Both the position numbers and the translations under genes were made by a program. From Gammaproteobacteria bacterium (GTDB lineage: Bacteria; Pseudomonadota; Gammaproteobacteria; 21-64-14): a DNA stretch of 64,000 bases. How positions within the stretch are numbered: the first letter of the stretch is position 1; the number at the start of each line of letters is the position of its first letter. This document shows positions 22,485 through 26,323 of this stretch, piece after piece. Where the stretch lies: positions 1 through 64,000 of the forward strand of contig JALUXX010000062.1 in assembly GCA_027013145.1 (NCBI GenBank). The letters run 5' to 3'. The notes beneath the pieces were generated by a model. The model was not told the DNA's origin. It saw only the letters and a list, made by a program, of their open reading frames with translations, and did not search any database.

Positions 22485-23533
22485 TGGATACCGGGGCCGT
22501 CGAACTCACCGTTCTGGATCGTCTTCCCGACGGCTTCCTGACGGCGGAACCCGCGGCCTTGCACCGTCTGCTGCCGGGTCCGACGCTCCTCCACCTCGCC
22601 GGGAGGGGCGAGCCGCCGCTTTTCGTCTCGGTGCTATTGCACGGCGATGAGGATACCGGGCTGCGCGCCGCACAGCGGTTGTTGCGCCGCTACCGCCCGG
22701 GCGGAGGCGCGCACGAACTGCCGCGGTCGCTGTCGCTGTTCGTCGGCAACGTCGCCGCCGCGGCGGCCGGGGTGCGCCGACTGCCCGGACAGCCGGACTA
22801 CAATCGCGTCTGGCCCGGGTCCGGGACCGGCGGCACGCCGGAGCACGCGCTCATGCGCCGCGTGTTCGAGGAGATGCGCGCACGGGGCGTGTTCGCGAGC
22901 GTCGACGTCCACAACAACACCGGGCTCAACCCGCACTATGCCTGCGTCAACCGGCGCGATCCGCGTTTCCTGAACCTGGCGTCGCTGTTCGGACGCACGG
23001 TGGTGTACTTCACCTCCCCGCGGGGAGTGCAGGCGGCGGCCTTCGCATCGCTCGCCCCGGCGGTCACCCTCGAGTGCGGACAGCCCGGCCTCGCCCGCGG
23101 GGTCGATCACGCGCTCGACTATCTGGAGACCTGTCTGCATCTGCCGGCGGTGCCCGGCGCCCCCCCCGATCCCGGATCGATCGACCTCTTCCATACCGTC
23201 GCGATCGTGAAGATCACGGAAGGCGTCTCGTTCGGGTTCGGCGCCGAGGAAGCGGACCTGCGGCTGGTGGAGGATCTCGATCACCTGAATTTCCGGGAAC
23301 TGCCGCCGGGTACGCGGCTGGGGTGGGTGCGCCCCGGGCGGCGCGCGCCGATCGCCGCCTATGACGACCGCGGCCGCGACGTCGCGGGCCGTTATTTCAC
23401 CGAGGTCGACGGCGAGTTGCGCACGGCGGCGGCGTTGATGCCTTCGATGTTCACCCGCGATCCGCGGGCCATCCGGCAGGACTGTCTCGGCTACCTCATG
23501 GAGCGTCTGGCGCCCGTGGACGGGGCGCGGTGA
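22484..23533 (+). CDS. M14-family zinc hydrolase, succinylglutamate desuccinylase/aspartoacylase-like
   Basis: Predicted zinc deacylase or carboxypeptidase of 349 residues. The metal ligands are His53 and Glu56 (HGDED) and His143 (DVHNNTG); Glu197 in VTLECG is the probable catalytic base. The C-terminal beta domain (from about 240) matches AstE-like proteins. No signal peptide, so it is cytoplasmic. ATG at 22484 overlaps the GCS2 stop by one base; a GTG one codon earlier is also possible. Its end overlaps the glycosyltransferase start (GTGA). The substrate is unknown, probably an N-acylated amino acid or glutamyl amide. Confidence 0.78.
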   Translation: MDTGAVELTVLDRLPDGFLTAEPAALHRLLPGPTLLHLAGRGEPPLFVSVLLHGDEDTGLRAAQRLLRRYRPGGGAHELPRSLSLFVGNVAAAAAGVRRLPGQPDYNRVWPGSGTGGTPEHALMRRVFEEMRARGVFASVDVHNNTGLNPHYACVNRRDPRFLNLASLFGRTVVYFTSPRGVQAAAFASLAPAVTLECGQPGLARGVDHALDYLETCLHLPAVPGAPPDPGSIDLFHTVAIVKITEGVSFGFGAEEADLRLVEDLDHLNFRELPPGTRLGWVRPGRRAPIAAYDDRGRDVAGRYFTEVDGELRTAAALMPSMFTRDPRAIRQDCLGYLMERLAPVDGAR

Positions 23534-24636
23534 GCGCTGCGGGCGCGGACGGCCCGCACCTGCTCGCGGCGATCTCGCACCACGGGCACGGGCACCTCGC
23601 CCAGTGCGCGCCGGTGCTCGCCGCCCTGCGCCGGCGCCTGCCCGGACTGCGGCTGACGGTGTATTCGGCGCTCCCGCGCGCGGTGCTGGCCGCGCGCATC
23701 GATCCGCCCTTCGCGTACCGGGCCGGGGCGGTCGACGTCGGCATGGTGATGGCGGACGCGCTCACGGTACGCCCCGCCGCGAGCGCCCGCGCCTATGCCG
23801 CCTTCCATCGGAACTGGGACGCCGATGTCGCGGACGAGGTGCGGGGCCTGGCGCGCGCGGCGGTGGACCTGGTCCTCGCCGATATCCCCTACCGGATCCT
23901 CGCCGCGGCCGCGCAGGCGGGGATCCCCGCCGTCGCGCTGTGCTCCCTGCACTGGGGGGAGATCTATGGCGCCTATTGCGCGCAGGCCGCCGGCGCCGGG
24001 CGGATCCTGCGGGAGATCACGAGCGCCTATCGCGCGGCGCGCGCGTTCCTGGCGCCGGAGCCGGCGTTGGCGATGCCGGACCTGCCGAACCGGGTGCCGA
24101 TCGGCCCCATCGCCCGCCTCGGCCGGGACCGGCGTGCGGCCGTGCGCCGCCGCGCCGGGCTCGATCCGCAGGCCGGCGGGCGCCTGGTGCTGGTGGCCCC
24201 GGGCGGGATCCCCACACCGCTGCCGCTGGCGCGGTGGCCTGCGCAGCCCGGCGTGCGCTGGATCGTGCCGCCGGAGAGCGCGGCCGCGCGTCCCGACGTG
24301 ATTCCCGTCACGGCCCTGGGGGAGTCGTTCGTCGACGTCCTGCGCGCCTGCGACGCGGTGATCACCAAGCCCGGATACGGCATGTTCGCCGAGGCGGCCT
24401 GCAACGGGGTGCCGGTGCTCTATGCCCGCCGCGGCGACTGGCCCGAGGAGCCGGGGCTGGCCGCGTGGCTGCGGCACCACGCGTGCGCGCGCGAGATCGA
24501 CCCCGAACGCCTGCGCGACGGCGACCTCGGCGGCGAGTTGGAGGCGCTGTGGGCGATGCCCGCGCCGCGCCCGCCCCGGCCCACCGGTATCGAACAGGCC
24601 GCCGACCGCCTCGAGGCGATCCTGCACGGCCCGTAG
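23530..24636 (+). CDS. Glycosyltransferase-like protein (GT-B fold)
   Basis: A 368-residue protein with a MurG/GT28-like two-domain architecture. The N-terminus has the nucleotide-sugar-transferase loop SHHGHGHLAQ; the C-terminal domain has VITKPGYGMFAEAACNGVPVLY, the donor-binding region of such enzymes. IPYRILAAAAQAGIPAVALC is also conserved in related hypothetical proteins. The acceptor is unknown. It is the last gene of the run starting at adk. Its TAG stop (24634-24636) lies inside the GTAG head of the first REP element, so the repeat supplies the stop codon. Confidence 0.75.
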   Translation: MSAAGADGPHLLAAISHHGHGHLAQCAPVLAALRRRLPGLRLTVYSALPRAVLAARIDPPFAYRAGAVDVGMVMADALTVRPAASARAYAAFHRNWDADVADEVRGLARAAVDLVLADIPYRILAAAAQAGIPAVALCSLHWGEIYGAYCAQAAGAGRILREITSAYRAARAFLAPEPALAMPDLPNRVPIGPIARLGRDRRAAVRRRAGLDPQAGGRLVLVAPGGIPTPLPLARWPAQPGVRWIVPPESAAARPDVIPVTALGESFVDVLRACDAVITKPGYGMFAEAACNGVPVLYARRGDWPEEPGLAAWLRHHACAREIDPERLRDGDLGGELEALWAMPAPRPPRPTGIEQAADRLEAILHGP

Positions 24637-25125
24637 GGCCGGGCTTGCCCGGTCTGCCGGCCGACGTTGTGGATCGGCGTGACATCGTTCGGATCGTCCG
24701 TCGTCGGCGGGGCGAGGTCCGCCCTACGGGCGCCAGGATCCGCGCAGGAGGTGGGGGTAGGGCCGGGCTTGCCCGGCCGACGCCGTGGATGGGGGCGACA
24801 TCGTTTGGGTCATGCGTCGTCGGCGGGGCGAGCCCCGCCCTACGGGCGCCAGGATCCGCGTAGGAGGTGGGGGTAGGGCCGGGCTTGCCCGGCCGACGCC
24901 GTGGATGGGGGCGACATCGTTTGGGTCATGCGTCGTCGACGGGGCGAGCCCCGCCCTGCAGGCGCCAGGATCCGCGCAGGAGGTGGGGGTAGGGCCGGGC
25001 TTGCCCGGCCGGCGTCGCGGACCGGTGCGACATCGTTTGGATCGGGTGTGGTCGGCGGGCCGACACCGCCAATGGCATCGGCGGCGCCTGGATCCGACGT
25101 CGTCGGCGGGCCGACCGCGCGCCGG
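24633..25125. repeat. Tandem array of REP doublets (REPINs), ~116-bp units
   Basis: Fills the convergent gap between the glycosyltransferase and lipA. Each unit starts with GTAGGGC plus a CGGGC/GCCCG palindrome and ends with the inverted copy closing in CTAC. Doublets: 24633-24727, 24757-24843, 24873-24959 (the last ends CTGC), and a decayed fourth from 24989. Units 2 and 3 are 116 bp apart and nearly identical, including the 29-bp linkers. GTAG-headed palindromes in inverted pairs are the hallmark of REPINs moved by RAYT transposases; no RAYT gene is in the window. Strong hairpins here may also terminate both flanking genes. Confidence 0.82.
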
Positions 25126-26088
25126 TCAGGCGCCCGCGAGCACCTCGCGCGCCTGGAGGTCCGCGTGGTAGGAGGAGCGCACCATCGGGCCGCTGGCGAC
25201 GTGACGAAAGCCCATACCCCGGGCGATCTCGCCGAGGCGGTCGAACTCCTCCGGGGTCACGAAGCGGGCGACCGGCAGATGGTGAACGGAGGGCTGCAGA
25301 TACTGGCCGAGGGTGAGCATCTCGACGCCGTGCGTGCGCAGATCGGCGAGGACCGCCTCGACCTCTTCGATCTCCTCGCCGAGGCCGAGCATGAGCCCGG
25401 ACTTGGTCGGCACCTGTGGGCACTGTTGCCGGAAGGCCTCCAGCAGCCGCAGCGAGCCGGCGTAGTCGGCACCCGGGCGGGCGCTGCGGTAGAGTCGCGG
25501 GACGGTCTCGAGGTTGTGGTTGAAGACATCGGGCGGAGCCGCGGCGAGGGCCGCGAGCGCGCGCGTCTCGCGGGCGCGGAAATCCGGGACCAGGATTTCC
25601 ACCCGGATCGCCGGGTTCTGCGCGCGCACCGCCTCGACGCAGGCGCTGAAATGGCTCGCGCCGCCGTCGCGCAGGTCGTCGCGGTCGACCGAGGTGATGA
25701 CGACATAGCGCAGGCCCATGGCGCGGATCGTGCGGGCGAGGTTGGCCGGCTCCTCGGGGTCGGGGGGCAGCGGACGCCCGTGGGCGACGTCGCAGAACGG
25801 GCAGCGGCGCGTGCACAGCTCGCCCAGGATCATGAAGGTCGCCGTCCCGTGCCCGAAGCACTCGCCGATGTTGGGGCAGGATGCCTCCTCGCAGACGGTA
25901 TGCAGACGGTTGGCGCGCAATACCGCCTTGAGCCGCTGCACCGCCGGATGTGCGGGGGACCGCGCACGGATCCAGGCCGGCTTGCGCGCCGGGGCTGTGG
26001 CGGGCGTGACGCGCACCGGGATGCGGGCGACCTTCTCGGCGCCGCGTTCGGGCACTCCGGCTTGGGGACGGCGGGGTCGGCTCATCAT
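25126..26088 (-). CDS. lipA: Lipoyl synthase
   Basis: Radical SAM enzyme that inserts two sulfurs into protein-bound octanoyl groups to make lipoyl cofactors. It has both iron-sulfur clusters: the auxiliary cluster [12 protein letters not shown] and the radical SAM motif CTRRCPFC, followed by the conserved ITSVDRDDL region and a C-terminal SSYHA. The start at 26088 (ATG-ATG pair) gives 320 residues, the usual length; a GTG at 26148 would add 20. Unlike in many relatives it is not directly after lipB: a 1.9-kb plus-strand insert separates them. Confidence 0.94.
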
Positions 26089-26323
26089 CGGGTCCGGTCG
26101 GAAGGGGCGGCCCGCGCGCGCGGCCGGTCCCGTTCGGTCCGCGGTCACTATACCACGGCAACCGCGCGTCCCGCGGGCCGCGGATCCGCGCCCGCCGCGG
26201 GCGAACCCCCTTCGGGGTAGTGCAGGCTATCGCCAAAGCGGTATTGAGGCGGCAACGCGGCGGACCGCATGATCGGGCGGGGTCGTTTCGGGGCCCGTGG
26301 CGTGGTGATCGGGGGAGGCGGAT

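Follow-up and report, generated by a model that had tools for sequence, protein, structure and literature searches.

A tandem array of GTAG-type REPINs in a convergent gene gap as the probable source of a TAG stop codon

The locus and its array

The 64,000-nucleotide stretch analysed here (the window, in which array coordinates are given; contig JALUXX010000062.1 of the gammaproteobacterial assembly GCA_027013145.1) carries a tandem array of REPINs in the gap between two convergent genes. A REPIN (REP doublet forming a hairpin) consists of two inverted hairpins of repetitive extragenic palindromic (REP) sequence, each headed by GTAG. The upstream gene is an open reading frame (ORF) of 368 amino acids (aa) (23530..24636, + strand), 73% identical to its orthologue in the sister genome G001, the sole other genome of the order that was compared. 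The name glycosyltransferase, given to this ORF in the initial annotation, can be kept only as a weak likeness, as a Pfam scan returned no family at the cut-off and the best match was EryCIII-like_C with an E-value of 0.005. The convergent neighbour is lipA, encoding lipoyl synthase (25126..26148, − strand; TIGR00510, 432.8 bits). The 3′ end of the upstream ORF reads CAC GGC CCG TAG, and its stop codon (24634-24636) forms bases 2-4 of the first GTAG of the array (24633), as had been annotated initially.

Four head-to-tail units, each in its regular form of 116 bp an 87-bp REPIN followed by a 29-bp linker, were found on the + strand at 24633-25057. Their GTAG heads begin at 24633, 24757, 24873 and 24989, a unit-to-unit spacing of 124/116/116, and the inverted partner heads lie on the − strand at 24727, 24843 and 24959. 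REPIN 1 (24633..24727, its left head GTAG at 24633 and its right head on the − strand from 24727) measures 95 bp owing to an 8-bp insertion, and is followed by linker 1 (GGGCGCCAGGATCCGCGCAGGAGGTGGGG, 24728..24756, 29 bp), REPIN 2 (24757..24843, 87 bp), linker 2 (24844..24872, 29 bp), REPIN 3 (24873..24959, 87 bp, with GCAG as its right head) and linker 3 (24960..24988, 29 bp). In REPIN 4 (24989..25057) the left REP is intact and the right REP is decayed, with no CTAC head. A degenerate REP-like remnant with 70% identity to the unit core follows on the + strand at 25058..25114. The tandem order, the spacing of about 116 bp and the conserved linkers of the initial annotation were thus recovered, the three linkers being near-identical to one another; its four doublets have to be amended for the longer first REPIN and for the fourth, which lacks its right head. 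The start of the annotated span (24633-25125) also stands, but the clean array ends near 25057, because the right half of the fourth unit is decayed, and only REP-like debris extends to about 25114.

Tandem Repeats Finder (TRF) reported a period of 116 with 3.6 copies and an 89% match. A chance origin of the repeats is excluded, since GTAGGGCNGGGCTTGCCC matched 10 times at three mismatches or fewer where 0.61 matches were expected from shuffled sequence, and a 22-mer matched 6 times against 0.02 expected. As single-stranded DNA, REPIN 2 is predicted to fold into a long hairpin (−30.6 kcal/mol, z −3.6). No match to the array region was obtained in Rfam or in a phage collection, and neither intrinsic terminators nor sigma-70 promoters were detected in it. 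An array of clustered regularly interspaced short palindromic repeats (CRISPR), with identical repeats and unique spacers, was ruled out by the near-identity of the linkers.

Genomic copies, transposase and linkers

Throughout the genome to which the window belongs (3.28 Mb, 67 contigs), 307 REP heads were counted at one mismatch or less, 157 on the + strand and 150 on the − strand, against 1 (0 + 1) for a reversed-pattern control, and BLAST with the unit found 160 places; the family is not confined to the window. The arrays were analysed in detail in the stretches surrounding them, which contain 230 of the 307 heads. As 216 of these belong to clusters with three heads or more, so that at least 216/307 heads are clustered genome-wide, arrays are the dominant form in this genome. 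The initial annotation had held tandem amplification to be rarer than single REPINs, which does not apply here, and there are good descriptions of such arrays from elsewhere.

In the analysed stretches 110 REPINs of 82-99 bp, mostly of 87 bp (65) or 95 bp (18), and 119 linkers of 26-29 bp were measured. The search pattern for the heads fixes some stem positions; pair 8-19, which it leaves free, is C-G 151 times, G-C 147 times and mismatched only 7 times; pair 11-16 is G-C 226 times and C-G 76 times. The hairpin is thus maintained by changes on both sides at several stem pairs. The family shows the traits of GTAG-type REPs and REPINs, with GTAG 5′ of a short palindrome, inverted pairs forming a long hairpin and a high, mainly extragenic copy number, and it shares with the modular bacterial interspersed mosaic elements (BIMEs) known as BIME-2 the regularly spaced tandem modules in which REP orientation alternates. 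A second palindromic element (GAGGCCACGGAAYCCACGGAACGCACGGAA...) is nested within REPINs at L039, L041, L046, L062, L064, L074 and L076. Derived arrays with a 70-bp period and right REPs only occur at L060:1965-2245, L074 and L079, and look as if each unit had lost its left REP and linker.

Five Y1 transposase loci were located in this genome. One of them, a 166-aa ORF at L063:1941-2441 (− strand), matches NF047646, the profile of the REP-associated tyrosine transposase (RAYT), with 146.7 bits (cut-off 80). It is flanked on both sides by arrays of the REP family of the window, its neighbours being genes that were named purD-like and accC-like by sequence, without a profile scan. By its profile match and position this gene is the putative cognate RAYT of the family, the transposase which the initial annotation had proposed to look for. 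The stretches around the Y1 loci on C11 and C16 contained no heads. At L031:1486-3202, near a REP cluster, lies an IS605-type tnpA/tnpB pair; L031 was rejected as a RAYT because its tnpA is of this type and stands next to tnpB (C3). No close orthologue of the L063 RAYT was found in the sister genome, the best match having 28% identity.

Linkers were compared using one linker per locus, with arrays binned by position. In the genome of the window 42/57 were at least 70% identical to GGGTGCCCGGGTCGGCGTGGGAGGTGGG, against 0/16 in the sister. Mean identity between loci was 0.64 here (0.55 shuffled) and 0.50 in the sister (0.48 shuffled), while identity within arrays was high in both (0.82 and 0.89, respectively). 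The best reading of these values is that array segments including linkers would have passed from locus to locus in this genome, by spread or by conversion. It is tentatively proposed that the spreading unit here is larger than the REPIN, in that REPIN plus linker would be moved or copied between loci, which would place one linker in dozens of arrays, and that the sister, without a close RAYT copy, would have mostly locus-specific linkers through mainly local array growth. The tie between those linkers and the absence of a close RAYT is one we infer from two genomes.

Gene tails have been copied along with REP units. At L036:1117-1872 (contig 2 of the genome of the window) a 165-bp coding end of the flanking gene is tandemly triplicated together with a REPIN at 97% identity, the junctions lying within 3 bp of the CTAC end of the REPIN. 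At L140:350-486 (contig 25 of the sister) an array includes about 37 bp from the 3′ end of the coding sequence of the window ORF's orthologue, along with the REP and linker next to it, at 92% identity to the source locus.

Array placement and the origin of the stop codons

With genes called by a codon model, both neighbours could be assigned for 48 arrays, of which 29 lie between convergent genes, 17 between co-directional and 2 between divergent ones. Arrays favour convergent gaps, as only 8/49 gene pairs of the window are convergent. Nine gene ends, counted strictly, stop inside a REP head that forms the edge of an array, and the loose count is about 13, about four more lying in degenerate heads; in about 11 cases the head is in frame, against 2 out of frame.

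The window ORF and nine more of these genes with usable orthologues, ten in all, were compared with the sister. In 8/10 the sister orthologue ends in TGA or TAA, which argues for the repeat as the donor of TAG. The clearest case is L048, where the sister ends at the same codon after a C-terminus of equal length, with TGA and no array, and the TAG of the present genome comes from the REP. The L042 orthologue has TAA at the same codon, and those of L051, L055, L072 and L075 differ in their ends, which are mostly longer. Only at L059 and L061a is TAG common to both species, with REP-like remains in both. The sister orthologue of the window ORF ends in ...LLRSDDPDGE followed by TGA, a few codons later, so the same stop was not found there without the repeat. 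Among class-level orthologues of the ORF, no head of this family lies within about 500 bp downstream and the ends vary. Relatives free of the array, as called for in the initial annotation, thus exist at class level with varying ends, but the nearest, the sister, has TGA together with an array of its own.

The repeat most likely donated the TAG stop, and in about eight orthologue pairs a functioning gene has apparently exchanged its own stop codon for that of a mobile repeat. The locus as a whole is very probably a tandem array of non-autonomous, BIME-2-like GTAG-type REPINs in a convergent gap, placed by a RAYT and multiplied locally, whose edge gives the stop, much as initially annotated: the copies run to hundreds, a REP head carries the stop and a RAYT is present. 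The transposase would place a REPIN in or beside the 3′ end of an ORF, and the unit would then multiply through duplication, unequal recombination or RAYT-driven copying. Since a REPIN begins with GTAG whichever edge it is entered from, an edge in the frame of the gene would supply TAG, and such insertions would survive because the protein is barely changed. Several points weigh against this account. In the sister, an array in which five left heads are intact begins directly after the ORF orthologue, and insertion at this site may thus be older than the species split; the polarity rests on two genomes, with one sister only; and the in-frame bias may partly reflect selection or the method by which genes were picked. 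The inner and linker sequences of the sister array are unlike those of the window. Arrays that occupy the same gap in both species, internally uniform and mutually different, point to independent amplification or concerted turnover.

Insertion of REPINs beside GTAG stops that already existed as target tetranucleotides would account for the exact match in frame seen at about 13 gene ends, and relatives in the IS200/IS605 group of insertion sequences use tetranucleotide sites at their ends. It is nevertheless improbable, because comparable sister orthologues that lack a REP there have TGA or TAA as their stop and none has GTAG, and TnpA-REP enzymes cut at CT or CA, with GTAG providing guidance and recognition (PMC8266576). 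Ordinary tandem duplication, with no part played by REP mobility, would fit units that are more alike within arrays than between loci (0.85 vs 0.64), but dozens of loci have the unit, one of them lying next to the RAYT, and the hairpin is conserved; the copies elsewhere refute duplication as a full account, and it is given very little credence. Retention of the array as a bidirectional transcription barrier, or as a stabiliser of mRNA 3′ ends between converging genes, is somewhat unlikely. The strong hairpins and the excess of convergent over divergent gaps agree with such a role, as do reported functions of REPs in termination and mRNA stability (PMC3733652, PMC2817692), but the region has no intrinsic-terminator signature, a similar distribution would result if arrays simply avoided promoters, and the array sequence at this locus is not conserved between both species.

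Comparison with known repeat systems

The array of the window clearly exemplifies an established type of bacterial repeat (REP/REPIN/BIME), and both the tandem units and the donated stop are already documented in other bacteria. In the BIME-2 and modular BIMEs of E. coli and Stenotrophomonas (PMC2817692) inverted REPs likewise alternate in regular tandem modules, a RAYT gene is directly flanked by a module, and gene 3′ ends are captured between REPs; the gene tails at L036 and L140 resemble this capture of the rayt 3′ end. Binding of DNA gyrase is a feature of BIME-2 in E. coli (PMC2817692). Clusters of tandem REPINs beside RAYTs are also known from P. fluorescens SBW25, where REPINs are mostly single and 16 ordered clusters were described (PMC3116915), unlike the mostly clustered heads found here. 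REPs of the GTAG superfamily share the tagged palindromes, the dimers with GTAG outside and termini that often supply the TAG stop of flanking ORFs (PMC3733652).

The linkers common to many loci are the only departure from published expectations. Inter-REP segments of the Stenotrophomonas BIMEs are without mutual homology (PMC2817692), and variable spacers in GTAG-inside dimers are a rule of thumb for the superfamily (PMC3733652), whereas here the linker is largely conserved and common to most loci. There is no settled account of the growth and spread of REPIN arrays, and the genus offers a natural contrast: its two species have their REP heads in common, but shared linkers and an identified RAYT occur in one, whereas in the other the linkers are locus-specific and no close orthologue of the RAYT was detected.
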